A DNA stretch of 64,000 nt from Photobacterium atrarenae (lineage in GTDB: Bacteria; Pseudomonadota; Gammaproteobacteria; Enterobacterales; Vibrionaceae). The stretch covers positions 1,426,902 to 1,490,901 of the forward strand of contig NZ_CP101508.1 in assembly GCF_024380015.1 (NCBI RefSeq), given 5' to 3'. Below the pieces are notes generated by a model. That model saw nothing but the letters and a program-made list of their open reading frames with translations. It ran no database searches and was not told the DNA's origin. The position numbers were made by a program, and so were the translations under genes. Positions 51,317 through 64,000 of this stretch are shown piece by piece; within the stretch, counting starts at the first letter, position 1; every line of letters starts with the position of its first letter.

Positions 51317-52348
51317 ATGAAAATTAAAGCGCTTTCAAAGCTGAAGCCTGAAGAAGGCATCTGGATGACCGAAGTGGACAAGCCGGAGCTTGGCCATAAC
51401 GATCTGCTGATCAAAATTAAGAAAACTGCGATTTGCGGTACCGACGTTCACATCTACAACTGGGATGAGTGGTCACAAAAGACAATTCCGGTTCCGATGG
51501 TTGTGGGTCACGAATACGTGGGTGAAGTGGTTGGCATCGGCCAGGAAGTTCGCGGTTTTGAAATCGGCGATCGCGTCTCCGGTGAAGGTCACATCACCTG
51601 TGGTCACTGCCGTAATTGTCGTGGCGGCCGGACGCACCTGTGCCGTAACACCATTGGTGTGGGCGTCAACCGCGAAGGCGCGTTTGCAGAATATCTGGTG
51701 ATCCCAGCATTCAATGCATTCAAAATCCCGGACGAGATCTCGGACGATCTGGCGTCGATTTTCGACCCGTTCGGCAATGCCGTTCACACCGCGCTGTCGT
51801 TCGACCTGGTGGGTGAAGATGTGCTGATCACCGGTGCAGGCCCAATCGGGATCATGGCTGCAGCCGTTGCCAAACACGTCGGTGCCCGTCATGTGGTGAT
51901 CACCGATGTGAACGAATACCGTCTGGATCTGGCGCGTCAAATGGGCGTGACCCGTGCAGTGAACGTTGCCAAAGAGAAGCTGGAAGATGTTGCCGCTGAG
52001 CTGGGCATGACTGAAGGCTTCGATGTCGGTCTGGAAATGTCGGGTAACCCGGCAGCTTTCAACAGCATGCTGACCAACATGAACCACGGCGGTAAGATTG
52101 CGCTGCTGGGTATTCCACCATCAGACATGGGCATCGACTGGAACCAGGTGATCTTCAAAGGTTTGATCATCAAAGGCATCTACGGTCGCGAAATGTTCGA
52201 GACTTGGTACAAGATGGCAAGCCTGATCCAATCTGGCCTGGATCTGAACCCAATTATCACCCACCACTTCAAGGTGGATGACTTCCAGAAAGGCTTCGAC
52301 GCCATGCGTAGCGGGCTTTCCGGCAAGGTTATCCTTGATTGGGAATAA
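51317..52348 (+). CDS. tdh: L-threonine 3-dehydrogenase
   Basis: 343 residues (E. coli 341). Zinc alcohol dehydrogenase family: catalytic zinc ligands around Cys40 (TAICGTDVH) and His65-Glu66 (GHEYVGE), structural zinc Cys95, Cys98, Cys101 and Cys109 (CGHCRNC ... HLC), and NAD motif [20 protein letters not shown]. It oxidises L-threonine to 2-amino-3-ketobutyrate, the substrate of Kbl. The start ATG at 51317 follows AAGAG. Confidence 0.97.
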
Positions 52349-52355
52349 GATTGAG

Positions 52356-52379
52356 AGCGCTCCGAAAGGGGCGCTTTTT
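52356..52379 (+). terminator. tdh terminator
   Basis: AGCGC-TCC-GAAA-GGG-GCGCT followed by TTTT; GAAA tetraloop. Confidence 0.88.
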
Positions 52380-52392
52380 CATTTTGACTGTG

Positions 52393-52408
52393 CTGTATGC
52401 ATAAACAG
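52393..52408. promoter_or_regulatory. LexA/SOS box, upstream copy
   Basis: CTGTATGCATAAACAG fits CTGT-N8-ACAG exactly. It lies between TTGACT (52384-52389) and TAAAAT (52409-52414), a possible promoter with a long 19-bp spacer. It is directly after the tdh terminator and about 365 bp from the umuD box, which it matches at 16 of 18 positions when flanks are included. Confidence 0.75.
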
Positions 52409-52414
52409 TAAAAT

Positions 52415-52507
52415 GGAAGTTGGGGCGGTATTTAGCCCCCCAAATAGCCCCTTTTTAGCCCCCATCTTTGTGAAAAAAAGCCCCCATGAACCGATGGGGG
52501 CTTTTTA
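52415..52507 (+). ncRNA. Candidate SOS-controlled small RNA or short leader transcript
   Basis: Between the upstream LexA box and a very strong terminator (stem AAAAAGCCCCCAT / ATGGGGGCTTTTT, 52476-52488 and 52494-52506). The interior has further AGCCCC repeats that could pair with the GGGGGC arm. An ATG at 52413 would open a 34-codon frame running through the terminator, without a ribosome site. The remaining 52508-52750 shows nothing. Transcript and function are inference. Confidence 0.35.
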
Positions 52508-52759
52508 CTTGGACTGATACATACACTGCCAAACACGTTGGCGGGTACAGTTCGAGCGATCCCACTCCGGCCTCCCTTCAAATTCCTTTCAGACCCAAGC
52601 TTGTCAGCACGGATCCTTCCACTCCATTTCATCCCTCACCGTTTTTGCCAGCCAGCTGTCGATGCTGAATCGTCCGCACATCCTGCTTACCTTTTCATCT
52701 GTTGATCCATTGAAGTGATAGAGCGCTTGCAAAACGCCCCGGTAGCGTTGAAAATAATA

Positions 52760-52775
52760 CTGTATAAATAAACAG
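52760..52775. promoter_or_regulatory. LexA/SOS box of umuDC
   Basis: CTGTATAAATAAACAG, with symmetric flanks giving AATACTGT ... ACAGTATT (52756-52779), 11 bases before the umuD start. A near-ideal box, predicting tight LexA repression. Confidence 0.92.
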
Positions 52776-52786
52776 TATTTTGCAAT

Positions 52787-53191
52787 ATGAACGTCATTCC
52801 AATTTGTGCAAGTGCCGGGATCACAGGCTTTGAGAGCCCGGCCGCCGATTACCTTCAGTTACCGCTCAGCCTGGATGAACTCCTGGTTGAACATCCCAGT
52901 GCCACCTTTATCGGGCGAGCACAGGGGCGCTCGATGGAAGGGGTCGGGATATTCGATGGCGATATCCTGATTGTAGATCGTCATGTCTCGGTGGCAGACC
53001 ACGATGTCATCGTCGCCAATTTCAATGGTGAATTCGTTTGTAAGATCATCGATGTCCGTCAGCGGCGGTTGCTCTCTGCAACCTCTGGGTACCCGCCGAT
53101 CTGGATCGGTGGCGATGATCAGTTTTCTGTCGAAGGCGTAGTGGTCCGCTCGATACGCTGCCACCGGGCCAGCCGGTTACTGGAGGCCTGA
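52787..53191 (+). CDS. umuD: UmuD-type S24 peptidase subunit of DNA polymerase V
   Basis: 134 residues. FESPAADYLQLPLSLDELLVEHPSAT is very close to E. coli UmuD. The catalytic serine is Ser49 in GRSMEGVGIFDGD and the lysine Lys86 in FVCKIID. The RecA-stimulated cleavage site would be Ala10-Gly11 (ASAG), so the arm removed is only 10 residues against 24 in E. coli. After self-cleavage UmuD' joins UmuC to form Pol V. There is no clear ribosome site before the ATG. It overlaps umuC by one base. Confidence 0.92.
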   Translation: MNVIPICASAGITGFESPAADYLQLPLSLDELLVEHPSATFIGRAQGRSMEGVGIFDGDILIVDRHVSVADHDVIVANFNGEFVCKIIDVRQRRLLSATSGYPPIWIGGDDQFSVEGVVVRSIRCHRASRLLEA

Positions 53192-54450
53192 TGTTTGCCC
53201 TGGTGGATGCTAATAGCTTCTATTGCTCTGCCGAGCAGGTCTACCGGCCAGACTGGCGTGGCAGGCCGATCATTGTGCTCAGCAATAATGATGGCTGTAT
53301 CGTGGCCGCAAACCGCCAGGCGCGCGAAGCCGGCATTGAAAAATTCAAGCCGTACTTTGAAGTGAAGGGGCTGTGTAAAGCTAAAGGCGTGATTGTCTGT
53401 TCGTCCAATTACGAGCTCTATGGTGACTTGTCCGCCAAGATGATGGAGGTGATCGGCCGCTTTGCGCCGGAGCAACATATCTACTCCATTGATGAATCCT
53501 TTCTTTCCTTTCAGCGCTGCAGTAAAGCGATTCCGGATTTCGCGGCCCATGGCAGCTTGCTGAGACGGACGGTATGGAAAGAGTGTCGATTGCCTCTATG
53601 TGTCGGCATGGGGCCGTCGCTGACGCTGGCCAAGGTGGCGAATCACGCGGCAAAGAAAATCCCCGGCTACCAGGGCGTTTGTGTGTTGGATGAGAGCAGG
53701 GCATGGCGTTCGGTACTGGCGCAGATGACAACCCGAGACATATGGGGGATCGGTGGGCGTATCGCCAGGCGGTTATCGCTGGTGGGGATTGAAACGGCGT
53801 TGCAGCTGGCCGATATGCCGCCTGGTCTCGCAAGAAAGCAGTTTAATGTTGAACTGGAGCGGACCGTTCGAGAGCTCAACGGCCAGCCCTGCAAAGTGTG
53901 GGATGAAGCGAGAGCAGACAAGAAACAGATCTTCTCAACCCGCAGTATGGGCCAGCGGATCACGTCCCTAACCGAACTGGAGCAGGCACTGTGTAAACAC
54001 GCTGGTATTGCCGCCGCCAAGGCGCGCCGACAACAATCGCTGTGCCGCCAGATACTCATTTTTGCCGGGAACTCGCCGTACGACGAAGCGCCAGTGAGCA
54101 GACGTTTTCAGTACCGGTTTGCCTTTCCGACAGATGACACCCGGCAGCTGACACAAATCGCATCCCAAGCCGCCAAATCACTCTTTATTCCGGGTGTTCG
54201 CTACTACAAGGTGGGCGTCGGGTTAATTGACCTGGAAGATGCCCGCCATGCCCAGCAGGACTTGTTCAACACCTCCCCAGCAGATCCAACGCTGATGAAA
54301 GCTTTCGACGGCATCAATGGAAAGTTTGGCTCAGATACTGTGTTCATGGCCGCGCAGGGGATCACCCCCAAGTGGGCGATGCGCCGTGAATTTCTCTCCC
54401 CGCAGTACACCACCAAGTGGCGGGATCTACCGGTTATCAAATGCGGATAA
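53191..54450 (+). CDS. umuC: Translesion DNA polymerase V catalytic subunit UmuC
   Basis: 419 residues (E. coli 422). Y-family polymerase: Asp6 in LVDANSFY, Asp101-Glu102 in YSIDESF, helix-hairpin-helix IWGIGGRIARRL near 187-198, and the UmuC-specific C-terminal domain with NGKFGSDTVFMAAQG and KWAMRREFLSP. A clamp-binding motif QQDLF is near residue 353. It copies across lesions as part of UmuD'2C with RecA. ATG overlaps the umuD stop (TGATG), so they are coupled. Confidence 0.95.
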   Translation: MFALVDANSFYCSAEQVYRPDWRGRPIIVLSNNDGCIVAANRQAREAGIEKFKPYFEVKGLCKAKGVIVCSSNYELYGDLSAKMMEVIGRFAPEQHIYSIDESFLSFQRCSKAIPDFAAHGSLLRRTVWKECRLPLCVGMGPSLTLAKVANHAAKKIPGYQGVCVLDESRAWRSVLAQMTTRDIWGIGGRIARRLSLVGIETALQLADMPPGLARKQFNVELERTVRELNGQPCKVWDEARADKKQIFSTRSMGQRITSLTELEQALCKHAGIAAAKARRQQSLCRQILIFAGNSPYDEAPVSRRFQYRFAFPTDDTRQLTQIASQAAKSLFIPGVRYYKVGVGLIDLEDARHAQQDLFNTSPADPTLMKAFDGINGKFGSDTVFMAAQGITPKWAMRREFLSPQYTTKWRDLPVIKCG

Positions 54451-54532
54451 GACATTCGGGGCTGGACAGTTGATCTGCTCTGACAAACAGTGATAAGTGA
54501 GAATTACCATTTTCTGCTTATCTCGGGGAGTG

Positions 54533-54635
54533 TTAACGAGACAGAAATTGCTCAATTTTCTCAGGGCCAATCAGCTTATGCTGTTGAAAATAAGCGCTTT
54601 ATTCTCCGTTGTTGAGTGCTTATGAGGTCTCGTTA
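54533..54635. repeat. attC-like inverted-repeat region before the first AT-rich cassette
   Basis: TAACGAGAC (54533-54541) and GTCTCGTTA (54627-54635) are perfect inverted arms about 100 bp apart, with inner CTCAA / TTGAG pairing. The size and the terminal GTTA match the plan of an integron attC site, though the outer cores (TGTTAAC, GTTATAC) do not fit the consensus fully. The rest of 54451-54819 has no gene. Confidence 0.45.
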
Positions 54636-54819
54636 TACGCACATGCATGTTTTGACCGAACGTAAAACCGGACATAGATATCAAATCAGGACTTAAATGT
54701 TTGATAAGCATAATGAATTGTCTAATATGTTATCAAAATACAATGAGTGTTATCGAGCATGCTGCTTAATACTCTGTTATACCTATGAGGGAGGAAACAA
54801 TGGGCAAAGGAGCTAATAA

Positions 54820-55215
54820 ATGCATGCGCTGATTGTGTATGGTTTTCCTATTATATTGGTTTCGTTTGAAGCTTTGCTTAGAAATCTGGTTAATGTCGAT
54901 ACCTTCGGGTTCGTTGGTCCAACTTTAGCAGCGACGGGTATTTCTTTCTTGGTACCACTTACAAAATTAAAAGAATTTGAGTTTGAGACAGATGAAGGTG
55001 AGCGATGGGTCAAAGTATCGAAAAGAGACCAAGTTTTCGTAAACTTGATGTGGTTATTTCTGTTTGTTTCTCTATTTATATGGTTTTGGATTTGCACTTT
55101 ATCTATTCAAAGTTCACCAGTACTTTTTCTTGGTTTTCCTGCTCAAATCTTAGCTGGAGCAGGACTTTATGTTTTCAGTATTATTCTTAGTACAGCTAAG
55201 GAGTATGTATCATGA
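54820..55215 (+). CDS. Small multi-pass membrane protein, partner of the anchored nuclease
   Basis: 131 residues with four hydrophobic segments (about 4-20, 27-48, 74-94, 101-124) and a charged loop at 49-72 (KLKEFEFETDEGERWVKVSKRD). No family recognised. AAAGGAG precedes the ATG. The stop overlaps the next ATG (ATGA), so it is coupled to the PD-(D/E)XK protein. The base composition is clearly more AT-rich than the core genes. Confidence 0.65.
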   Translation: MHALIVYGFPIILVSFEALLRNLVNVDTFGFVGPTLAATGISFLVPLTKLKEFEFETDEGERWVKVSKRDQVFVNLMWLFLFVSLFIWFWICTLSIQSSPVLFLGFPAQILAGAGLYVFSIILSTAKEYVS

Positions 55216-55778
55216 ATATTGACCTTATGAGTGTTTTGATCGGCATACTCTCATCAATAGTTACAGCCATTGCCGTTTTCTTTACAAAAAGGTTGGCCAA
55301 GAAAAACCTTAATCAAAAAGTTGTCACACTAAAAAATAGCCACGGTGGAACTATAGAAATAGTTACAGGAAATGACGGTGAGAAAAATATACGGTCGCAT
55401 TTCAGAGATGCGATTGAATACGAGAGAACCGTCGCAGATATTCTTAGAAATCTAAATTTTGAGGTTGAAGAAGCTTCACTGAAGTCACCAGATAAAGGTT
55501 ACGATCTTCTAGCAAAACTTGGAGAGCGGCTGATAGCCGTTGAAGTTAAGTCACATTCAAGACCACTTTCGGCGAGTGTAATCAAAGATACATTAAATAA
55601 ATTTCCAACCGATATTGATGACGCATTGTTTATCTCTAAAAATGGTTTCTCGAGTTCCTCTTTGGATTATATTCAAAGCTTTAATAAGGGCATCGCCTTA
55701 GCGAGTGGAGAAAACGAAGAGCTAATTAAAAGTATTAAAAGTGCGTTAGAGTCAAAAGGTATAAAACAAGCCAAGTAA
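55212..55778 (+). CDS. Membrane-anchored PD-(D/E)XK nuclease-like protein
   Basis: 188 residues. One membrane helix at about 5-25 (LMSVLIGILSSIVTAIAVFF), a basic linker, then from about 70 a restriction-endonuclease-like fold. EYERTVADILRNLNFEVEEASLKSPDKGYDLLAKLG ends with Asp97 in GYDLL and is followed by the strand LIAVEVKSHS with the E-x-K pair (Glu111 and Lys113). This D-x(n)-E-x-K plan is that of Mrr/Holliday-junction-resolvase type nucleases. It is coupled to the preceding membrane protein. A role in attacking invading DNA at the membrane is inference. Confidence 0.6.
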   Translation: MNIDLMSVLIGILSSIVTAIAVFFTKRLAKKNLNQKVVTLKNSHGGTIEIVTGNDGEKNIRSHFRDAIEYERTVADILRNLNFEVEEASLKSPDKGYDLLAKLGERLIAVEVKSHSRPLSASVIKDTLNKFPTDIDDALFISKNGFSSSSLDYIQSFNKGIALASGENEELIKSIKSALESKGIKQAK

Positions 55779-55780
55779 GT

Positions 55781-55829
55781 GGGACGCACTAACGTGCGAC
55801 CCTTCTTGGAGCGTTAGGGCTACACGCAA
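55781..55829. repeat. Hairpin and possible degenerate attC between cassette genes
   Basis: GGGACGCAC / GTGCGACCC (55781-55789, 55794-55802, one mismatch) forms a hairpin with loop TAAC. Farther apart, CTAACG and CGTTAG pair (55789-55794 and 55812-55817), with GTTAGGGC as a right-core-like end. The next gene starts 25 bp after it, as in cassettes. Too short to be called an attC with confidence. Confidence 0.35.
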
Positions 55830-55841
55830 AAGGAGATACAA

Positions 55842-56516
55842 TTGTCGTTTGAAGTAATTATCGAAGCATTGAAAGACTCTACTGCCACCGTAGGATTAGT
55901 GGCTGTTGCAATGGCAGTGTTAAGTAATGTTGTTACTTCACAGATCATTAAGCCAGAAAAAAGGGAAGAGAAGGCCAAGGATAAACTTTTCAAGTTGCTA
56001 AACTCTCACTTAGATGCTGGTCACGATATTGATTTAGAGTTTTTAAAATATGTAAAATCATCAGTAGAGCGAGAGTTTGAAACAAACATTGCCATATCTC
56101 ACCTACTTGAAGACTTTCTTGTTCATAAATTGAACGCGCAAAGCGAAAGTAAACATAATATAGATTACATAAGTAAACTAAAGTTATTAATAGAAGCTGA
56201 GAAGCAAGTCAAGCCTTTCGATAGTCTTCCATCAGAAGAAAGAAGACTCCTTAAGGGGTTGAAAGATTCAATCGAAGCTAAAGAGGCAACCGAGAGTACA
56301 AATTATTTTATTGATGAACTTAGCACAGTACTATCTGTGAGAAGTAGTGAGCATCAACGAACTCATCAAACTAACAAATGGTCAGTCCCATTGGCTATTA
56401 TCGGTCTGGTATTTACTATTGTTTTTGGAGTAATGAGTATTTTTAGTGGCCCCAACGAAGATGCAGTGGCTTCCAAAATAATAGAGAGAATCGAGCAACA
56501 AAGTCCTAACAAGTAA
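55842..56516 (+). CDS. Uncharacterised protein with membrane helices at both ends
   Basis: 224 residues from TTG at 55842 with a strong AAAAGGAGA site. Membrane helices lie at about 14-33 and 186-206; the charged middle (about 36-180) is helical (KREEKAKDKLFKLLNSH, EKQVKPFDSLPSEERRLLKGLKDSIEAKEA) and probably cytoplasmic. No known family. The gene begins shortly after a possible attC remnant, so it may be a single-gene cassette. Base composition is AT-rich. Confidence 0.6.
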   Translation: MSFEVIIEALKDSTATVGLVAVAMAVLSNVVTSQIIKPEKREEKAKDKLFKLLNSHLDAGHDIDLEFLKYVKSSVEREFETNIAISHLLEDFLVHKLNAQSESKHNIDYISKLKLLIEAEKQVKPFDSLPSEERRLLKGLKDSIEAKEATESTNYFIDELSTVLSVRSSEHQRTHQTNKWSVPLAIIGLVFTIVFGVMSIFSGPNEDAVASKIIERIEQQSPNK

Positions 56517-57079
56517 AACCAGCGGATTCTGGACTTCCCCGGTTGTCAACAACAGCGTCAGGTAATGCAAGGGTTTGAACTGCCGCTCTACATTAAGTCT
56601 GTTGAGTGGCATTTATGCCATGACCCTTATGGACTGTGCGGTTGCGGTTCCTCATTCGTTAGAAGGCATCAAATGTGCCCGCAGCATTATCAGGTTTTCC
56701 CGCAAAGATCTGAAAATTACATCATCATTGGTTGTTGCAATCTCCTGGTGAAGTGGTTACTCCTGAAAGACTGATATCGGGATTTTACGGACTGACTGGA
56801 CCGATAATGAGAGGCTCCACAGACTTTCATCCTAGCCATAGCCAGCGGGATATTGACAAACGTCGAAAGGACTTTTGATCGCGGTATTGTTCTGTTGATC
56901 AAGACCTTGCATTGGTGAACCTCACCGTGGATACTGAATCAATGTTTGGCTAAATCAATACCATAGATAGATTATTACGTGGTTGCCTCCGGCGATTTCG
57001 TCATCAGATTTACCAAGTGTGGCAAAGCCTGATGAGGGGGAGTCCATGTCATTCGTTATGTTTCTGGAGCACAGCCGAT
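56517..57079. other. 563-bp stretch with insertion-sequence debris
   Basis: It contains the IS110-family remnant listed separately and, at 57054-57060, a GTTATGT core-like motif that may mark the start of the next cassette. 56517-56716 has no recognisable coding sequence. Confidence 0.5.
56717..56968 (-). pseudogene. Remnant of an IS110-family transposase (N-terminal part)
   Basis: On the minus strand the translation reads IYGIDLAKH, an in-frame stop, then FSIHGEVHQCKVLINR, RSKVLSTFVNIPLAMARMKV and CGASHYRSSQSVKSR. This is the DEDD N-terminal domain of IS110/IS1111 transposases (IGIDLAK ... HG ... GMEACGGAHYWAREL). The aligned part stops after about 84 codons, so the catalytic C-terminal domain is missing. 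At least one internal stop makes it non-functional. Confidence 0.75.
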
Positions 57080-57904
57080 ATGGCCGAAAACTTATTCAAA
57101 TACCTTGGTGTGGTGGCAGCGAACTCGTTCCTGCAAGAAGAAACTATCCGATTTACTCCGCCTAACTCATACAACGATCCGTTTGAGCTATCACTTGATA
57201 TACGTATGCGCTCCAATATTGAGCCGTCTATAGCAGGGCTGAGGTTTGTCCTTCACGGCGGAAAGTCGGTAATCGAGAACTTCCTGATACCCAGTGAAAG
57301 GATAGATGAGTATAAATTTGAACTTGCAAACAATGTAATTGAACAACTGAGCTCTAGTGTCGGAACCTGTTGCTTTTCACTATCAGAAAAGAAAATTCCG
57401 CTAAACCTGCTGATGTGGGCGCACTATGCGGAATCTCACCGGGGAATAGCCTTAAAGTTGAAGCGCGGAACAGAACTTGCTAATCGTGCTGCTGAGGTCC
57501 GCTATAGCAAGGGTAGGCCCGTGGTTGATGGTGCAATGTTCTCGGACGGTTCGGAAATTTCGGTGTCGGATTTGTATGTAAAGTCGGATCACTGGCAATA
57601 CGAACGCGAGAGGAGAGTTGCAATGCGGCTGGCAGATTGCACTGATACCGGAAAAACCGATGCGTTCAGTATACCCGTTCATGTTGCAAAAATTCCCACG
57701 AATGATGTTGAGCAAGTTGTGGTCGGAGTGAACGCAAGCGAAGAAACAAAAAAACTTGCCCTAGAATTTCATCATCGTACTGGGGTTCAGGTTGTACGGG
57801 TCAGGCCTTCCGGCCAGAAATTTGGTTTCGAGCCGTATGCGGTTTTCGGTGGCGACTTAGCAGAAGCAAGAGAGTTATGTGAAAGTTATGGCACAGAAGC
57901 CTAA
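57080..57904 (+). CDS. DUF2971 domain protein
   Basis: 274 residues. It begins MAENLFKYLGVV and has the DUF2971 marks FTPPNSYNDPFELS at about 26-39, LLMWAHYAESHRGIALKLKRG around 112-132 and SDHWQYERERRVAM around 174-187. The family is common in accessory regions; its function is not known to me. The start at 57080 has GGAG before it and lies about 25 bp after a GTTATGT motif. The stop codon is inside the attC site, as usual for integron cassettes. Confidence 0.8.
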   Translation: MAENLFKYLGVVAANSFLQEETIRFTPPNSYNDPFELSLDIRMRSNIEPSIAGLRFVLHGGKSVIENFLIPSERIDEYKFELANNVIEQLSSSVGTCCFSLSEKKIPLNLLMWAHYAESHRGIALKLKRGTELANRAAEVRYSKGRPVVDGAMFSDGSEISVSDLYVKSDHWQYERERRVAMRLADCTDTGKTDAFSIPVHVAKIPTNDVEQVVVGVNASEETKKLALEFHHRTGVQVVRVRPSGQKFGFEPYAVFGGDLAEARELCESYGTEA

Positions 57905-57984
57905 CAAAACCATGGAGAGGGGCGCAATTTTCGCTATGCCCTGCGGGCTCCGCTCCAAATGCGCCCTCAAGGTTGGCGTTAAGC
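57899..57984 (+). repeat. attC recombination site of an integron gene cassette
   Basis: 86 bp bounded by GCCTAAC (57899-57905, consensus RYYYAAC) and GTTAAGC (57978-57984, consensus GTTRRRY). Inside, GAGGGGCGCA (57917-57926) pairs with TGCGCCCTC (57960-57968) with one extrahelical base, as in real attC hairpins. It overlaps the stop of the DUF2971 gene, and the next gene starts 10 bp after it. Confidence 0.82.
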
Positions 57985-57994
57985 TCTTCGGGAC

Positions 57995-58660
57995 ATGATG
58001 ATGAAATACTTGGAAGAAATGTTAAACATAATTTCCAAAGGCATGACTAAAAAAACTGCCATCATTTTGATGCTGACAGTGGTTTCTATATTACTATCTT
58101 TTTCTACCACCAAAACTCTAGCTGAAGAACTTCCTGTTTTAGTGTTATTTAGTCTGCTTACTGGATTTTATATTGCTTTATATGTACTAGCTTTTGATAT
58201 CGTGTGTTGGTTGTTTAATCAGATAAATACTATTCGCAAGTCTCTTTTAGACACTTCAATTACTACGTTTGCAAAATTTAAGTTGTTAATTCAAAACAAT
58301 AAAAAACAAAGATTGGCTCAAAGGTTATTTATAGAGAAAATGGGTGAGAATGAGGTTAAGTATTTGTCTCTTTTTTTTGGTGAGCCTAAAAGTTCCATAA
58401 AAAATAATCATGGGTTAATACCTAAAGAGGTAATGGAATACTTTGATGATTTATGTGGTAGTAAGTTAATGGTACGGGAGGTTACTACTGATGGTGCTAG
58501 CTATGTATTTTTTATAGATAAACGTTTTTCAAAAACTTTGCAGAAAAGAATTTTTTTAAATGAGCAGGTTAGTAGTTCATTAACTTTAAAACTCACAGAG
58601 ATTCAAGCGAGTATTGTCACCAGAGGTGGGGGGCTTGCGAGAGGGAATGTCCGAACTTGA
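57995..58660 (+). CDS. Two-helix membrane protein with C-terminal domain, SieB-like architecture
   Basis: 221 residues. Membrane helices lie at about 21-38 and 46-74. The rest is cytoplasmic: a basic linker (RKSLLDTSITTFAKFKLLIQNNKK) and a compact C-terminal domain (ENEVKYLSLFFGEP ... VMEYFDDLCGSKLMVREV ... SYVFFIDKRFSKTL). This order (two helices, then a winged-helix-like domain) recalls the superinfection-exclusion SieB family, but the similarity is weak. It overlaps the next gene by four bases. It starts 10 bp after the attC. Confidence 0.55.
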   Translation: MMMKYLEEMLNIISKGMTKKTAIILMLTVVSILLSFSTTKTLAEELPVLVLFSLLTGFYIALYVLAFDIVCWLFNQINTIRKSLLDTSITTFAKFKLLIQNNKKQRLAQRLFIEKMGENEVKYLSLFFGEPKSSIKNNHGLIPKEVMEYFDDLCGSKLMVREVTTDGASYVFFIDKRFSKTLQKRIFLNEQVSSSLTLKLTEIQASIVTRGGGLARGNVRT

Positions 58661-59364
58661 CAAAGCACTTAAACAGAACAGAAACAGTTGATATTGAGGG
58701 GACTTTGAAAAATATTGATTATCCATCTTTCACTGCTTTTATTGCGTTGGTGATTACTTGTTTCTCTGCTGGTTTTTTTACTGGTAGCGGTAGCTGGGGA
58801 TCTGCGATTTCTGGTGTAATAGTGTCACTTATTTCCAGTTATGTATTCTTCATATTAACGGTCACTTTGACAAAGCGAGAGGATAGAAAGAAAAATAATC
58901 GTATTGTTTATCCTCAGCTTGAGAGTTTGATCTGCAAAGTAGACTACGCTTTAGAAGTATGTATCCCTTTAGTTGTGAATCATAAAAACGTCAAAAATAT
59001 AGATTTAGTTGAGTTAAAGCGATACCTCTCAGTTAGAGGTGCTCTGGATCATCAAATTCCGAAAAATCTGGGCATAGTTATCTATTCGAAGAATCAGTAT
59101 GAAGCAAGGAATTATAAAGAGCTTCTCACTATATATACTACTTGGCCAATACTCGACCTTATTGAACAACTTAAACCGCACTATTTCCTTATGGAGAAAG
59201 AACTAGTTGAAACTCTTTCAAAAATTGCAAATAGTCATTATTTAAGAGTAACAGGCTCTACTCTAGTTGATGAGGGCCAAGTGTTGTTCATTCCACCGCA
59301 CTTTATTGAGTTTGTTGAAGCTATTGAGCAACTTCGAGAGCAACTATCTAAGATGAGAATGTAA
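58657..59364 (+). CDS. Membrane protein with cytoplasmic C-terminal domain, coupled to the preceding gene
   Basis: 235 residues from TTG at 58657, overlapping the previous TGA (TTGA). Two membrane helices at about 24-42 and 48-70 are followed by a charged region (TKREDRKKNNRIVYPQLESL) and an alpha-helical domain of about 150 residues. No family recognised. With the preceding gene it forms a two-gene cassette between the attC at 57899 and a GCATAAC core at 59365. Base composition is AT-rich. Confidence 0.55.
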   Translation: MTKHLNRTETVDIEGTLKNIDYPSFTAFIALVITCFSAGFFTGSGSWGSAISGVIVSLISSYVFFILTVTLTKREDRKKNNRIVYPQLESLICKVDYALEVCIPLVVNHKNVKNIDLVELKRYLSVRGALDHQIPKNLGIVIYSKNQYEARNYKELLTIYTTWPILDLIEQLKPHYFLMEKELVETLSKIANSHYLRVTGSTLVDEGQVLFIPPHFIEFVEAIEQLREQLSKMRM

Positions 59365-59371
59365 GCATAAC
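59365..59371 (+). repeat. Left core of a truncated Vibrio-type attC site
   Basis: GCATAAC directly after the stop of the last cassette gene, followed by AACGTTTAAGC as in Vibrio attC left halves. No matching right half (GTTATGC type) is found before the integrase, so the site was cut, perhaps by the prophage or its predecessor. 59372-59470 has no gene and should contain the phage attachment region, whose core cannot be defined from one end. Confidence 0.4.
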
Positions 59372-59470
59372 AACGTTTAAGCTATCAAGATACTTTATCT
59401 AATATTAAATAATCGGGTTAGAATCACTAATCTACCCCATTTCTGCTCAGCTGCGAGTTACGATAACAGC

Positions 59471-59490
59471 AAACCGCCTTTCGGCGGTTT
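59471..59490 (-). terminator. int terminator overlapping the stop codon
   Basis: AAACCGCC-TTTC-GGCGGTTT; the last bases of int lie in the stem. Confidence 0.75.
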
Positions 59491-60712
59491 ACTTCCTCTG
59501 AACCTTCTGCAACTCTCCCCACACCCGATCGGACTCTTTCTTGTTCGATTCCGTTAACCACTTCCCGTAGACCTTGGCGACCATGGTGATGTCGGCGTGG
59601 CCCATTTGCTGCGCCAGGTAACTGACATTGACGTTCGCGTGGGTGATCATCCAACTGGCGTAGGTGTGCCGCAACTGGTACTGGTTGCGGTGTGGAATGC
59701 CGGCCTTTTGGCAAAGGGCTTCCCAAACTTTGCCAAGCGCGCGTTTCCCGTAATAGTCGTAGTCGCTGCACTTTTGCTCACGAACGGCCTTTGGGTTGAA
59801 GACAAAGCGGAGCTTCTCTTGGCGATAAGCTTGGCCGGGCAACTCAACATCATATTCTTTGGCCGGAAACAAATACGTTAAGTGGCGTTGCGCCTTTAAT
59901 GCTTCAATGGCTGGTGGCAGTAAATCAACAAAGCGTTCTTTGTCGGTCTTGGTTGTTTTGAGGCCACGCCTGTCATAGGTTGATCGCCGGATGTGAATGG
60001 TGTTGTTTTCAAAGTCCACATCTTCCCAGGCGAGGGCACACAACTCGCCGCTGCGAATGCCGGTGTAAACCAGTAGTGTGATCATATTCCTGTGCTGTAG
60101 CTGGTGGCATTCAGCCAGTGCCTTGTTAATTTCGTCGACTGAGAAGGGCTGTATGTCAACCTCGCTCTCTTTCACTCGGGTGAGCACCTCCGAGAGATCG
60201 CGCTCGACGTATTCCATTTTGTGTAGCCAGGCCAGAAAGGCATTGATGGTGACCAGGTTGCGGTTAATCGTCCGGCCACTTTTCCCTTTCACCAGCTCCT
60301 GCCGGAATTGCGTGAGTGATCTGGGCGATAGCGTGTCGCAGCTCCGGTTGGCGCCGTAGAGTTCGAGAAAGTCCCTCAGCACCCATTCATACCGCTGGTG
60401 GGTCGACCGGCGAATGTCGTGCGCTTTGGATTCAAGAAACTGTTTCGCGAGTTGGCTCAGATCTAATGCCCCCGGCTTTCCTGACGCATGCTTGGATTCA
60501 GGAAAGTGGGCGGCATAGCTAAAGGTGCCGATTTTCATTTCATAGAGCATGGCCTCGCGCTTGCGCGTGGCGAAATTGATGTTCTGTTTCGTTGGTTTCA
60601 GGCCAAGTGATTCTCGATGGCGCTTCCCTTTGTAGTAGAAGCATATCCGTAAATTTCCGCTATGGATTTCTATACCAGAAGGGAGTTTATCTACTATTGC
60701 ATTCGGTGCCAT
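59489..60712 (-). CDS. Phage tyrosine recombinase integrase
   Basis: 407 residues. An N-terminal DUF3596-type arm-binding domain (PSGIEIHSGNLRICFYYKGK, GLKPTKQNINFATRKREAM) is followed by a core-binding SAM-like domain (about 85-170) and the catalytic domain. The catalytic residues are Arg220 (TGIRSGEL), Arg348 (YQLRHTYAS, with Tyr in place of the usual first His), His371 (MGHAD) and Tyr382 (VYGKW). It integrates and excises the prophage. I use the ATG at 60712, where GAGGA is well spaced; the ATG three codons before overlaps that site. It overlaps the xis-like gene. Confidence 0.92.
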   Translation of the reverse strand: MAPNAIVDKLPSGIEIHSGNLRICFYYKGKRHRESLGLKPTKQNINFATRKREAMLYEMKIGTFSYAAHFPESKHASGKPGALDLSQLAKQFLESKAHDIRRSTHQRYEWVLRDFLELYGANRSCDTLSPRSLTQFRQELVKGKSGRTINRNLVTINAFLAWLHKMEYVERDLSEVLTRVKESEVDIQPFSVDEINKALAECHQLQHRNMITLLVYTGIRSGELCALAWEDVDFENNTIHIRRSTYDRRGLKTTKTDKERFVDLLPPAIEALKAQRHLTYLFPAKEYDVELPGQAYRQEKLRFVFNPKAVREQKCSDYDYYGKRALGKVWEALCQKAGIPHRNQYQLRHTYASWMITHANVNVSYLAQQMGHADITMVAKVYGKWLTESNKKESDRVWGELQKVQRK

Positions 60713-60876
60713 CGGTTCCATTCCTCAATATCTACCATCCAGGTGCCGTGAATCTTTCTCATGACAGTGGATGGATAGAACCCGTCACGAGCTTTTTCTC
60801 GCAATGTTTTGGTGCTCAGGCCGATCTCTTCAGAAGCCTTCTTCAGCGTAACAATCGCGATTTGAGATCTACTCAT
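60694..60876 (-). CDS. Excisionase-like small DNA-binding protein
   Basis: 60 residues. KKASEEIGLSTKTLREKARDGFYPSTV at 12-38 is a MerR/HTH_17-type winged helix as in phage excisionases and AlpA-like regulators, ending with WMVDIEEWNRW. It overlaps the start of int by 19 bases, the usual xis-int order. It would bend DNA at the attachment site to direct excision. Confidence 0.75.
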   Translation of the reverse strand: MSRSQIAIVTLKKASEEIGLSTKTLREKARDGFYPSTVMRKIHGTWMVDIEEWNRWHRMQ

Positions 60877-60913
60877 GTATGTGACCTATATATCTGGTTA
60901 TGGTGTTGAAGGT

Positions 60914-60943
60914 AACCACCAGTAACGGGCGGAACTGGTGGTT
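60914..60943 (-). terminator. Hairpin after the exonuclease gene
   Basis: Perfect ten-base stem AACCACCAGT / ACTGGTGGTT, 20 bp after the exonuclease stop, without a T-run; may reduce readthrough into xis-int. Confidence 0.5.
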
Positions 60944-60963
60944 GACTTTTTAAACGTACCGAC

Positions 60964-61572
60964 TCAGTGCGCGGTATTGCTTGAAGCGTGGTGCGCCTTG
61001 TTCAGCGCCAGCATGGTTAAGGTGTCTTTGGCGGCATCATGCAACGCGTGGTGCTTGATGAATCCAACAGGATTCTTTTCAACCACATAGCCGTTACGCG
61101 AGGCGGACAGAATATCAATGGCAGTACGAACGCAGCGGAACCGGTTGTAGGTCCAGGGCGTCAGCAATTCCAGCTGATCGTAGGCATGATTCAAAATGCC
61201 GCCGTCAAAGTCGTAGCCACGGCAAAACACTTGTCCGCTGTCTTTCTTCAGGGGAAGCACGTGAGCACAAAGGTGGATGTGTAGCTTCATCAAAGCATCT
61301 TTAATGCTGATGTCTGTCGGGCTTGGCGCCAGAACATGCCTTGCCGCTTCACCCTGGCTTTCCCACCATTTCATCGTGCTGGTGGACTCGGTGAAGCCAG
61401 CAGGGAAGCTGGATAAATCGAGAGTCAAATACAGGCTGCTTTCCCGGTGGCACAGTTCATCAAAGCTGACGTTCTCTCCCCAGTTGAATGGCACCACGCC
61501 AATGCTGAGAATCTTTGAGGTGTCTTCAGTGTCAGTTGTTTCGAGGTCGATCGTGACGTTTTCGTAGTGCAT
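60964..61572 (-). CDS. DnaQ-like 3'-5' exonuclease (phage, exonuclease VIII/Rv2179c type)
   Basis: 202 residues. DEDD exonuclease motifs: Exo I TIDLETTDT (Asp9, Glu11), Exo II FCRGYDFDGGILNHAY near 115-130, and Exo III HHALHDAAKDTLTML near 173-187 with the catalytic His and Asp. MKWWESQGEAARHVL is typical of the phage/RecE-like group. Probably part of phage recombination or host DNA degradation. Ten bp separate it from the small ORF upstream in the same transcript. Confidence 0.83.
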   Translation of the reverse strand: MHYENVTIDLETTDTEDTSKILSIGVVPFNWGENVSFDELCHRESSLYLTLDLSSFPAGFTESTSTMKWWESQGEAARHVLAPSPTDISIKDALMKLHIHLCAHVLPLKKDSGQVFCRGYDFDGGILNHAYDQLELLTPWTYNRFRCVRTAIDILSASRNGYVVEKNPVGFIKHHALHDAAKDTLTMLALNKAHHASSNTAH

Positions 61573-61581
61573 GTTGGTCCC

Positions 61582-61791
61582 TTACAGTAGCTTGCTGGCT
61601 TGATCGGCGAAGTCGTTGAGCAGATCGGAAGTGAGTTCAGTTGAAACCGGGTAGGGCTTGCTGACGCCCCATCCATTTTCTTGGTTTTCATGCCGGATCA
61701 GCTTCAGATCAACCACCTGTCCCAGTGGGAAGAGGTAATACGGCTTGCCGACCGTAATCACCCCGTGTTTTGTTTGAAATGCAGTTGCCAT
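61582..61791 (-). CDS. Small uncharacterised phage protein
   Basis: 69 residues from the ATG at 61791 with GAGG five bases before. VGKPYYLFPLGQVVDLKLIRHENQENGWGVSKP suggests a small beta barrel. No family known to me. It lies between DUF2303 and the exonuclease in the leftward early operon. Confidence 0.6.
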   Translation of the reverse strand: MATAFQTKHGVITVGKPYYLFPLGQVVDLKLIRHENQENGWGVSKPYPVSTELTSDLLNDFADQASKLL

Positions 61792-61835
61792 GTTTCCTCG
61801 CAAGAAGCGCCCTCCTGAAAGGGCGCGTTATCCGG

Positions 61836-62660
61836 TTATGAAGAGAACGAGCCGATAAAGGTGTCGATTTCGATTTCTTCCGACAGGAACTTGGCTTGAA
61901 GTTTCTCTTGGAACTCTTCGCCCATTTCTTCCTGATGCTGCTCTAATTTCTTGATCCGTAGCACCAGCGTATCGTTCCCGATGGTGCTCATGCGCAGTTC
62001 AAACACGCGCTCATCAAGCCCCAGGTACGGCTCACAGGTGAACTTGAACACGGCAGGCATTGGGAATTCATCTTTGGTACGAACAGCAATCGACTCGTAC
62101 TCAGATTGGTGTTGGCTGAAATCATCAACGTTTGATTCACGGCCTGCTTTTGCTTCGAACTTCATGTTACGAACCGCGGCAGAAGCGACCGCGTTCTCAA
62201 TGACGTCACCGGCGGTCGAAAACACTTGGATCGACGCGCTGTAATCTTCGATCCACTCGGCCAGCTGCTTTTGCCCGAGGCGTTCTTCATTCACGTTTAG
62301 CAGGGCACGAAACAGTGCTGTTTTACGCAAGGTCAGCTGTGCCTGGTGTTTGCAATGGCCCGGGAAATTGTGAGTACCCAGGTCAAAGATGGTTAACGCT
62401 GACATGCTGTCGGCGTTGATAAAACACTGGTTTCCTTCGGTCTGATACTCTTCGTGGTAGCGAACAAATTCATCGATGTTGGCCGTTTTCATCAGGCCGC
62501 GGAAAGTGTTGCGGTTAGGCATAAAGCTTTCCAGGCTGTGCAGTGCGAAGTTTTCAGGGAGCGCCGCAACAGGAAACCCTGCGCCAGCCAACTGGGCCAG
62601 AAACTCTTTCGCGCTGCCGGATTCTTGAATTTGTTGAATTGCAGATTTGTCCATGCTCAT
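61836..62660 (-). CDS. DUF2303 (YfdQ-like) phage protein
   Basis: 274 residues, the length of E. coli prophage protein YfdQ. Typical features are the N-terminal ALPENFALHSLESFMPNRNTFRG and the central SALTIFDLG ... HCKHQAQLTLRKTALFRALL, then QKQLAEWIEDYS. Function is unknown; members lie in early regions of lambdoid phages. Two ATGs three bases apart are possible starts. Confidence 0.85.
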   Translation of the reverse strand: MSMDKSAIQQIQESGSAKEFLAQLAGAGFPVAALPENFALHSLESFMPNRNTFRGLMKTANIDEFVRYHEEYQTEGNQCFINADSMSALTIFDLGTHNFPGHCKHQAQLTLRKTALFRALLNVNEERLGQKQLAEWIEDYSASIQVFSTAGDVIENAVASAAVRNMKFEAKAGRESNVDDFSQHQSEYESIAVRTKDEFPMPAVFKFTCEPYLGLDERVFELRMSTIGNDTLVLRIKKLEQHQEEMGEEFQEKLQAKFLSEEIEIDTFIGSFSS

Positions 62661-62699
62661 GATTACTCTCTTTCAGGTTATTGAATCGGGTGGTGTGTA

Positions 62700-63095
62700 T
62701 TAGCCGCGAACTTCACGCAGCACGGCGTCTTCTATAACAACTTGGCCGTGAACGTCTTCTTTTGGTCGGTCGTAGGTCAGTTTGCCGCCTTTCCCTACAT
62801 ACGCGATTGAGGTGTACTGGAAGTCTTCACTCTTGGCGCCGAAACCAGTCTTTGGCTCCTTCACCGACATGTTGACCGTGATTTCAACCATCTCGTTGTT
62901 GGTGCCCATGGGCTTCAGCTTGAGGTCCATCTTCACGTTGCCGGCTTTGTCGCTGTACGAAACAGCCCGGGCAACGTTCGACATGGCCAGTCCCATAACA
63001 TTTGAAATGACCCCGCCATCAAGCTCTTGCATCAGCTTGGGGAAGTTGGTGGTGCGATCCTCAACACTGAGGTTTCCGGCTTCTTGTTTCTGCAT
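62700..63095 (-). CDS. Uncharacterised early phage protein
   Basis: 131 residues from the ATG at 63095 (GAGG upstream). The beta-rich centre (NVKMDLKLKPMGTNNEMVEITVNMSVKEPKTG) and C-terminal AYVGKGGKLTYDRPKEDVHGQVV are often seen next to DUF2303 proteins in phages, but no function is known to me. It is the first gene of the leftward early transcript, after the operator array. Confidence 0.65.
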   Translation of the reverse strand: MQKQEAGNLSVEDRTTNFPKLMQELDGGVISNVMGLAMSNVARAVSYSDKAGNVKMDLKLKPMGTNNEMVEITVNMSVKEPKTGFGAKSEDFQYTSIAYVGKGGKLTYDRPKEDVHGQVVIEDAVLREVRG

Positions 63096-63144
63096 CGTTT
63101 TTCCTCGCAATTTGTCAGGTGGCTACGTTTTGTGTTTTCAATCT

Positions 63145-63181
63145 ACACATATCGTGTCCATGGGTCAAACACAAAATGTGT
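63145..63181. promoter_or_regulatory. Left operator array (OL-like)
   Basis: Two sites ACAC-N5-GTGT at 63145-63157 and 63169-63181 (the latter in AACACAAAATGTGTT), centres 24 bp apart. A weaker third, CTAC-N5-GTGT, is at 63123-63135. They match the sites right of the repressor gene and lie where the leftward early promoter should be. Confidence 0.75.
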
Positions 63182-63219
63182 TCGTGTGGTTTGCGAGGTG
63201 CGAAAGGAGGTATAAAAAA

Positions 63220-63235
63220 ACCGCCCGGAGGCGGT
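63220..63235 (-). terminator. Terminator of the repressor gene
   Basis: ACCGCC / GGCGGT stem; the minus-strand transcript runs into seven T. It is 29 bp after the repressor stop and prevents readthrough into the early operon. Confidence 0.82.
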
Positions 63236-63264
63236 TAGATTTGTGTTTTGGCGAGGCGAGTCGG

Positions 63265-63927
63265 TTAGAAGAGTTTCATTTTCGCGTCGACAACGACACC
63301 AATAATTTTGCAGTTACCGTTGATAGGTAAAGTCGGGTATGACGGATTCAGGGGTTTTAAGAATTTCTGGCCAGCATCGATGACGAGCTTTTTAAAAGTC
63401 GCCTCGTTCACATCAATCAGCTTAGCAACGACTAAAGAGCCATTTGCAAAATCTCGTTCCGGATCAACCAGCACAAGCGTTCCTTCTGGAAAGCTGAGAC
63501 CGGTTGCTGACGTCATAGAGTCACCCTGGACTCTTAACCAGAAGCTATGTTTGCTTGTGCGCTCAGTGGTTTCATACCATTCATCAGCATCAATGCTTGA
63601 ACAGGGCTCGACTGCTTCAGTCCAGGCCCCAGCTTGAACTGAGCTCAATACTGGAAATTGTTGTTTGTAGGAAGGCTGAATGTCTATCTTAGAAACATTC
63701 GCAAACTCAATTAACTCTTCGCTATCAAATAAGATCTGATATGGCTTGATGCCAAGGTGTTTAGCGATGACTTCTGCATCATCAAGGTTGATGCTACGCG
63801 CACCCGCTTCATAGTTTCCAATACGAGACGCTCCCCAGCCGCACTTTTCAGCCAGAGATCTTTGACTCATCCCTTTATCTTCCCGGAAGCGCTTAAGGCG
63901 TGCCCCGACTTCTTGTTTCTTATTCAT
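63265..63927 (-). CDS. CI-type phage repressor with S24 self-cleavage domain
   Basis: 220 residues. A helix-turn-helix domain (XRE) is at about 8-60 (LKRFREDKGMSQRSLAEKCGWGASRIGNYE). The S24 peptidase domain has the cleavage site Ala99-Gly100 (SSVQAGAW), Ser137 (VQGDSMTS) and Lys179 (TFKKLVID), with FLKPLNPSYPTLPINGNCKIIG almost as in lambda CI. It keeps the lysogeny and is destroyed by RecA-stimulated self-cleavage during SOS. Operators flank the gene on both sides. Confidence 0.93.
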   Translation of the reverse strand: MNKKQEVGARLKRFREDKGMSQRSLAEKCGWGASRIGNYEAGARSINLDDAEVIAKHLGIKPYQILFDSEELIEFANVSKIDIQPSYKQQFPVLSSVQAGAWTEAVEPCSSIDADEWYETTERTSKHSFWLRVQGDSMTSATGLSFPEGTLVLVDPERDFANGSLVVAKLIDVNEATFKKLVIDAGQKFLKPLNPSYPTLPINGNCKIIGVVVDAKMKLF

Positions 63928-63963
63928 GTCATTAAATTACCACGCTCCGTGTACAGAGTAAGC

Positions 63964-63999
63964 ACACTATTTGTGTTTACGGTTGAACACGATTTGTGT
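63964..63999. promoter_or_regulatory. Right operator array (OR-like), cut by the window end
   Basis: ACACTATTTGTGT (63964-63976) and ACACGATTTGTGT (63987-63999), the same ACAC-N5-GTGT consensus as on the left, centres 23 bp apart. They lie upstream of the repressor gene, where the repressor and cro promoters would diverge. A third site probably lies beyond 64000. Confidence 0.78.
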
Positions 64000-64000
64000 A

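Follow-up and report, generated by a model that had tools for sequence, protein, structure and literature searches.

A pair of overlapping open reading frames (ORFs) lies in the stretch of 64,000 nucleotides from Photobacterium atrarenae analysed here (contig NZ_CP101508.1, positions 1,426,902 to 1,490,901; hereafter the window). ORF1 encodes a small membrane protein and ORF2 encodes a protein in which an N-terminal hydrophobic stretch is followed by a Mrr-type PD-(D/E)XK domain; the pair is considered here as a candidate defence module. The positions of both genes and their ATGA overlap are those claimed in an earlier note on this DNA (Table 1). The Shine-Dalgarno-like AAGGAG of ORF2 is formed by the codons of the conserved ORF1 residues K127-E128 (window 55190-55215) in all five loci compared. 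Since this motif sits in those codons, the conservation of K127-E128 may partly reflect the start signal of ORF2. The G+C content is 37% at 54451-55778, versus 53% at 40-51 kb of the window.

ORF2 matches the Pfam family Mrr_cat with 38 bits, the curated cut-off being 21, and its structural model has a PD-(D/E)XK core fold, as seen from both its structural elements and its matches to Protein Data Bank (PDB) structures. Across all 15 aligned members of the ORF2 family, the invariant residues are M1, D98, E111 and K113 and nothing else, with E71 nearly invariant; equivalents of D98, E111 and K113 are also present in the Thalassotalea ORF2. Mrr_cat itself is matched by 10 of the 15 members at an expect value (E) ≤ 0.1. 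A hydropathy scan (19 residues, threshold 1.6) finds a single hydrophobic stretch in ORF2, at its N-terminus, and the positive residues directly after this helix suggest that the nuclease domain is cytoplasmic. The earlier note had read one membrane helix and a D...E-x-K core from the sequence, and the structure prediction agrees with it, the core being present in the model together with the conserved D98 and E111-x-K113. Pfam shows no further domain in ORF2 that would recognise DNA, and no methylase gene adjoining the pair was seen in the five loci.

The partner protein resembles nothing named in the databases searched. In the best AlphaFold2 model (predicted local distance difference test score, pLDDT, 76.7), ORF1 forms four long helices (residues 2-24, 29-48, 68-96 and 108-130), as expected from its earlier description as a four-helix membrane protein. 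The hydropathy scan detects three of the four in the window's ORF1, four stretches in the Thiohalophilus protein, three in that of Massilia and one in that of genome G402. Since hydropathy alone gives three in the window, the count of four depends mainly on the model. ORF1 has no match at E ≤ 1 in Pfam, NCBIfam or PADLOC, 12 members of its family have none in PADLOC, and its fold matches no PDB or viral structure at E ≤ 0.001. The family conserves an F-P motif, E17, R21, D27 and GPTLAA, the polar residues E17, R21 and D27 being invariant; judging from this conservation, these three residues and GPTLAA look functional. Two apparent similarities were rejected. A likeness to cytochrome c oxidase subunit III appeared with the mixed profile A5 only (PDB E 0.02), and the one genome match of this profile (E 6e-4) falls within a cox3-like gene, with weak similarity at L025:886-1692. 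With the larger profile A2 the PDB gave nothing at E ≤ 1, so this likeness was set aside as chance or composition. A weak ORF1 match in genome G547 (E 8.7e-4) lies in a longer ORF, unlike ORF1 by eye, and was excluded. Both the cox3-like and the G547 matches were left out of the locus count.

Single-query searches of a protein database returned 32 ORF1 and 10 ORF2 sequences, those of the window included, and an ORF2 profile search returned 15. Five distinct loci were read as DNA, namely the window, Thiohalophilus thiocyanatoxydans (L002), Massilia agrisoli (L003), G402, a genome of the same order (L013/L015), and G1386, here taken as Thalassotalea euphylliae, the source of protein P0018 (L026/L027). 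An ORF2-type gene stands directly after ORF1 in all five, either overlapping it or in stop-start contact, at identities to the window as low as 42% for ORF1 and, depending on the alignment, 16-22% for ORF2. The genes flanking the pair vary among these loci; for instance, in Massilia the pair is placed between two other genes almost without spacer. ORF3 (55842-56516) could be ruled out as a third component, since a different gene stands downstream of the pair in the other loci. For the window compared with Thiohalophilus, the ratio of nonsynonymous to synonymous substitution rates (dN/dS) is 0.036 for ORF1 and 0.132 for ORF2, rough values given that dS is near saturation. The low dN/dS, together with a pairing retained at all five distinct loci, indicates that the pair is more than chance. 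The homologues read do not stand alone in housekeeping contexts, which would have spoken against the proposal of the earlier note; they occur as pairs, are rare and lie in part on mobile DNA, and the two genes travel together between distant bacteria.

The two genes diverge at different rates. The window and Thalassotalea share 84% identity in ORF1 and 40% in ORF2 (dN 0.11 versus 0.55), and the window and Thiohalophilus share 85% and 71%, so that dN in ORF2 exceeds that in ORF1 about fivefold for Thalassotalea and two- to threefold for Thiohalophilus. Within ORF2, 24 of 49 residues are kept in the core (83-131) and only 7 of 26 in the preceding part (57-82). This gap may stem from diversifying selection, from replacement of the nuclease by another or from a strong constraint acting on ORF1. 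The far higher conservation of ORF1 would also suit an abortive or toxin-antitoxin-like unit, in which ORF2 would be harmful to host DNA and would be restrained by ORF1 at the membrane; once infection disturbed the membrane, the infected cell would die. The tight coupling of the two genes, with ORF1 first, points the same way, and cassette-borne gene pairs are often toxin-antitoxin units. However, no toxin or antitoxin family is matched above its curated cut-off, nor is one found for ORF1 in PADLOC, and the presence of a helix in the nuclease points to tethering rather than inhibition alone. The defence protein SNIPE is anchored by a helix whose removal is toxic, and it cuts injecting DNA (PMC13190303). 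We therefore regard a toxin-antitoxin-like role as unlikely.

The pair is rare. ORF1 profiles were run at E ≤ 1e-3 over genome samples that overlap, and detected ORF1 in 2 of 369 genomes of the class (the window's own and Thiohalophilus), in 3 of 197 of the order (the window's own, G402 and one weak match set aside), in 1 of 329 of the family (the window's own only) and in 2 of 398 of the phylum (the window's own and one weak match set aside). Around the other loci, one of 17 genomes of the genus Massilia carries it (that Massilia itself), as do one of four in the family of G402 (G402 itself) and one of 306 in a further family (G1386). At E ≤ 1e-6 the ORF2 profile detected the identical two of the 369 class genomes. 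A search of genome contigs gave two loci with the ORF1 alignment and none with ORF2 alone, and the pair had no match in phage records (tblastn), plasmids (P0039 included) or IMG/VR.

The position of the pair is itself informative. When the next 40 kb of the genome are used, an exact 104-bp repeat, consisting of the tdh 3' end and terminator, is found on both sides of the pair. Between its copies lie a tyrosine integrase and, towards the right, genes for terminase gpA, a lambda-type portal, an S49 protease and capsid E. Since these phage genes and the pair fall between the two repeats, the pair belongs to a prophage of about 46 kb, in which it is placed between umuDC and the integrase. The prophage occupies window 52277-64000, continues to L029:14560 and is integrated at the tdh 3' end. 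The earlier note had placed the pair in an array of cassettes beside a prophage; this has to be corrected, as the pair is within the prophage, between attL and the integrase. One clear attC site is situated further on in the window.

In sister prophages, the slot between umuC and the integrase holds varying cargo, often defence genes. A search of IMG/VR with the integrase gave 42 loci, of which the first 27 were used (L030-L056, 53-93% identity over most of the integrase) and 15 dropped. Among the 27, L035 and L054 are near copies, the slot of L034 is empty, and L036, L038, L039, L044, L051 and L053 extend at most 616 bases past the integrase. Of the remaining 18 sister slots, 17 were scanned singly, L048 being left out as it resembles L047 (82%). 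For the sister slots 63 ORFs were listed, 41 of which were tallied (one is tdh, from L034) and 20 scanned singly, with 25 of 153 and 25 of 28 families listed. In four sister loci, L034 among them, tdh (91-92%) is next on the slot side and the att sequence is present at 78-83% identity, which confirms the tdh integration site. The closest sister, L030 (integrase 93%, umuDC 95%), has the Lamassu gene LmuB between umuC and the integrase. With one or two cargo genes scanned per slot, PADLOC matches at E ≤ 1e-6 were obtained in nine of the 17 slots, namely LmuB, bSEFIR, RexA, RmrA, PDC-S19, type II restriction (two loci), type IIG and the model 'cll'. Among the matches listed, the Pfam tally of the 41 ORFs gave LlaJI restriction three times, Cap4 nuclease twice, and RnlA/RnlB, RexA and SEFIR/TIR once each, some loci being alike (L047/L048). 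Prophage hotspots are known reservoirs of defence genes in E. coli (PMC9519451), and the umuC-integrase slot at tdh could be mined as a hotspot for further unnamed defence genes.

In Thalassotalea, the pair has the form of one gene cassette between two attC sites, L027:7394-7493 (100 nt) and L027:8471-8573 (103 nt). Both have a z-score of -5.8 versus mononucleotide shuffles; the downstream one was spotted by eye and missed by the scan rule, and the stretch holds further repeats of this kind. On L027 the rule gave three sites on the gene strand, one of which (136 nt) looks spurious, and two on the opposite strand; it found none in L002 or L015 and, on either strand, none within the window's first 50 kb. 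A separate inverted-repeat scan was discarded, having overlooked the clear attC of the window. In G402, a hairpin of 48 nt that resembles a short attC lies behind ORF2. In the window, no clear attC lies directly behind the pair; upstream of it, a possible degenerate site ends in GTTATAC at its 3' end, like the Thalassotalea cassette, and is a weak candidate, with non-canonical core boxes and missed by the scan rules. Seven TIGR02249 matches for an integron integrase were obtained in the window's genome, none above cut-off. Small defence genes are known from integrons; in one V. cholerae strain they account for at least 16 of 179 cassettes (PMC12409362). The cassette form, together with the lack of any sequence feature indicating phage recognition, would also suit a barrier to plasmids, conjugation or natural transformation rather than to phage, with DNA cut as it arrives through other entry machines. 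We find this improbable, since the pair is prophage-borne, in a slot where sisters carry phage-defence genes, and since SNIPE did not block plasmid transformation (PMC13190303).

As the earlier note supposed, no named system with this pair was found in PADLOC 2.0.0 or in the literature searched, primary integron-defence reports being outside that search. Several systems resemble it in part, and a review puts SNIPE, Kiwa and Zorya together as users of membrane localisation (PMC12904381). One N-terminal membrane helix, a cytoplasmic nuclease and cutting at the membrane have been shown for SNIPE (PD-lambda-1) and are proposed here for the pair. On the other hand, SNIPE is a single protein, with DUF4041 and a GIY-YIG nuclease, that associates with host ManYZ (PMC13190303), whereas the pair has a PD-(D/E)XK domain, no DUF4041 and its own membrane partner gene; ORF2 matches neither DUF4041 nor GIY-YIG in Pfam at E ≤ 1, only Mrr_cat instead. 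Kiwa (KwaA-KwaB) is likewise encoded by two genes, one for a protein of the inner membrane and one for a partner that acts on DNA, but KwaB binds DNA without cutting it (PMC12904381). No Kwa model of PADLOC was matched by the ORF1 family (E ≤ 1) or appeared among the 20 families listed for the ORF2 family (E ≤ 0.1). In Zorya (ZorAB with ZorC/ZorD) a membrane sensor is coupled to a DNA-cutting part, and one member of the ORF2 family has a marginal match to ZorD1 ('helicase, Mrr-like nuclease'; E 0.0067). However, the pair has two proteins rather than four, no motor proteins or helicase were found, and in the window PADLOC gave no Zor match at E ≤ 1 for either ORF1 or the four cargo genes that follow the pair. 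With MspJI, AspBHI and other Mrr_cat nucleases, ORF2 shares the catalytic domain family and fold; it differs by its membrane helix and partner and by having no second Pfam DNA-recognition domain. PADLOC candidate family PDC-S02 is matched weakly, and by no more of ORF2 than its Mrr part (residues 57-156, E 4.5e-7), and its model PDLC04815 is matched by 8 of 15 ORF2 family members at E ≤ 0.1; the PDC-S02 models are 324-346 positions long and are matched in their later part only. We know of no described mechanism for PDC-S02.

Collectively, these data make it probable that the two genes form a module directed against phage or other DNA that enters the cell, composed of a membrane-held Mrr-type nuclease and a constant membrane partner. 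ORF2 would be anchored in the inner membrane by its one helix, with the catalytic domain facing the cytoplasm. ORF1, as an anchor, sensor or gate in contact with it, would most likely place or gate ORF2 where DNA enters, and incoming DNA would be cut at the inner membrane while the chromosome is spared. Since Pfam reveals no recognition domain and no methylase gene was seen, some other means must spare the chromosome; by analogy with SNIPE, the tested precedent, membrane tethering would be the simplest answer. The fold and the strategy are known. What would be new is a Mrr-type domain used together with one helix and this four-helix partner, a combination found neither in PADLOC 2.0.0 nor in the literature searched. 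The idea of a new defence module thus stands in part: the slot carries recognised defence genes in sister prophages, but membrane-localised defence is already known from SNIPE and Zorya, and from Kiwa for DNA binding, and the module is inside a prophage. If this interpretation is true, a minimal membrane-nuclease defence of less than 1 kb joins the few systems that separate self from non-self by place, not by sequence, and a membrane protein without known family is the likely placing or sensing part. A more specific scheme can be offered only tentatively, as one that may well not hold: a new two-part family in which near-invariant ORF1 senses DNA entry or membrane disturbance and fast-diverging, tethered ORF2 is the variable part, spread both by integrons, in cassette form, and by a family of tdh-integrating prophages, as part of their cargo. 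Such an arrangement would invert the common pattern of a 'variable sensor, constant effector'.

Several observations weigh against this interpretation. RPB5-type RNA polymerase subunits are also in the fold-match list of the ORF2 model, so that nuclease activity is not demonstrated by the fold alone; furthermore, a PDB sequence search gave nothing at E ≤ 0.001, and the five most diverged ORF2 proteins have no Mrr_cat match themselves. ORF2 lacks DUF4041, the phage-binding domain of SNIPE. Just one of five ORF1 models is good, the remaining four having pLDDT values of 57-64, and the protein has no recognisable fold. As to the slot, it is seen to carry defence genes, the degree of enrichment not having been measured as there was no control gene set; the pair occurs in none of the 27 sister slots, several of which are incomplete, and a prophage gene outside the slot (L028:8002-9732) also matches a PADLOC candidate, PDC-M40B (E 1.4e-20). 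Eight of the 17 sister slots have no PADLOC match in their scanned genes, which would also fit a physiological cassette, serving for example the membrane or DNA repair, that was acquired by chance. The neighbouring umuDC belongs to the SOS response, and nearby ORF3, ORF5 and ORF6 match no family above cut-off, both in line with a non-defence role. Yet the occurrence of the pair is patchy, both in the family and in the genus Massilia, so that a mobile accessory module fits better than physiology, and we judge the physiological cassette very improbable.

Table 1. Features of the gene pair, of ORF2 and of the surrounding prophage (window positions unless residues are stated).
Feature	Position	Strand	Remarks
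ORF1	54820-55215	+	131 residues; membrane protein, no known family
ORF2	55212-55778	+	188 residues; N-terminal helix then nuclease domain
ATGA overlap of ORF1/ORF2	55212-55215	+	
ORF2, N-terminal hydrophobic stretch	residues 1-28		
ORF2, beta-hairpin	residues 36-52		low confidence
ORF2, Mrr_cat / PD-(D/E)XK domain	residues 57-181		
attL	52277-52380	.	tdh 3' end and terminator; partner copy at L029:14457-14560 (window-extended 98457-98560)
umuDC of prophage	52787-54450	+	tdh-side border of cargo slot
Possible degenerate attC upstream of pair	54531-54638	+	inverted repeat TAACGAGAC/GTCTCGTTA; z -2.6 versus mononucleotide shuffles
Clear attC	57899-57984	+	86 nt, 8/8 core positions, z -3.1; after DUF2971 gene; belongs to surroundings, not to pair
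Tyrosine integrase of prophage	59489-60721	-	other border of cargo slot

The window contains no tRNA, and its four Rfam matches at E ≤ 1 all stay below the gathering scores of their families. The DUF2971 gene of the slot (57017-57904), immediately followed by the clear attC, matches PADLOC candidate PDC-S31 (E 1.6e-30). A second overlapping gene pair in the slot (57995-58660 and 58657-59364) has hydrophobic stretches by eye and no family above cut-off; it may be a further two-gene module. Aeromonas phage pAEv1818 (L072) has a related integrase (39%) with an adjoining umuD gene, and since it shares this neighbourhood, the association of umuD and integrase may predate the present prophage family. 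Right of attR, a degenerate second element (L029:14457-19042) is composed of a umuC 3' fragment, a gene with a GmrSD_N domain and an integrase remnant. The GmrSD_N-domain gene matches PADLOC NsnA (6.3e-39), its neighbour of 203 residues being without matches, and exact repeats of 44 and 70 nt connect the umuC and integrase ends of this element to those of the first. From these repeats and the GmrSD_N/NsnA gene, it follows that the equivalent slot of the second element has another restriction-type gene.
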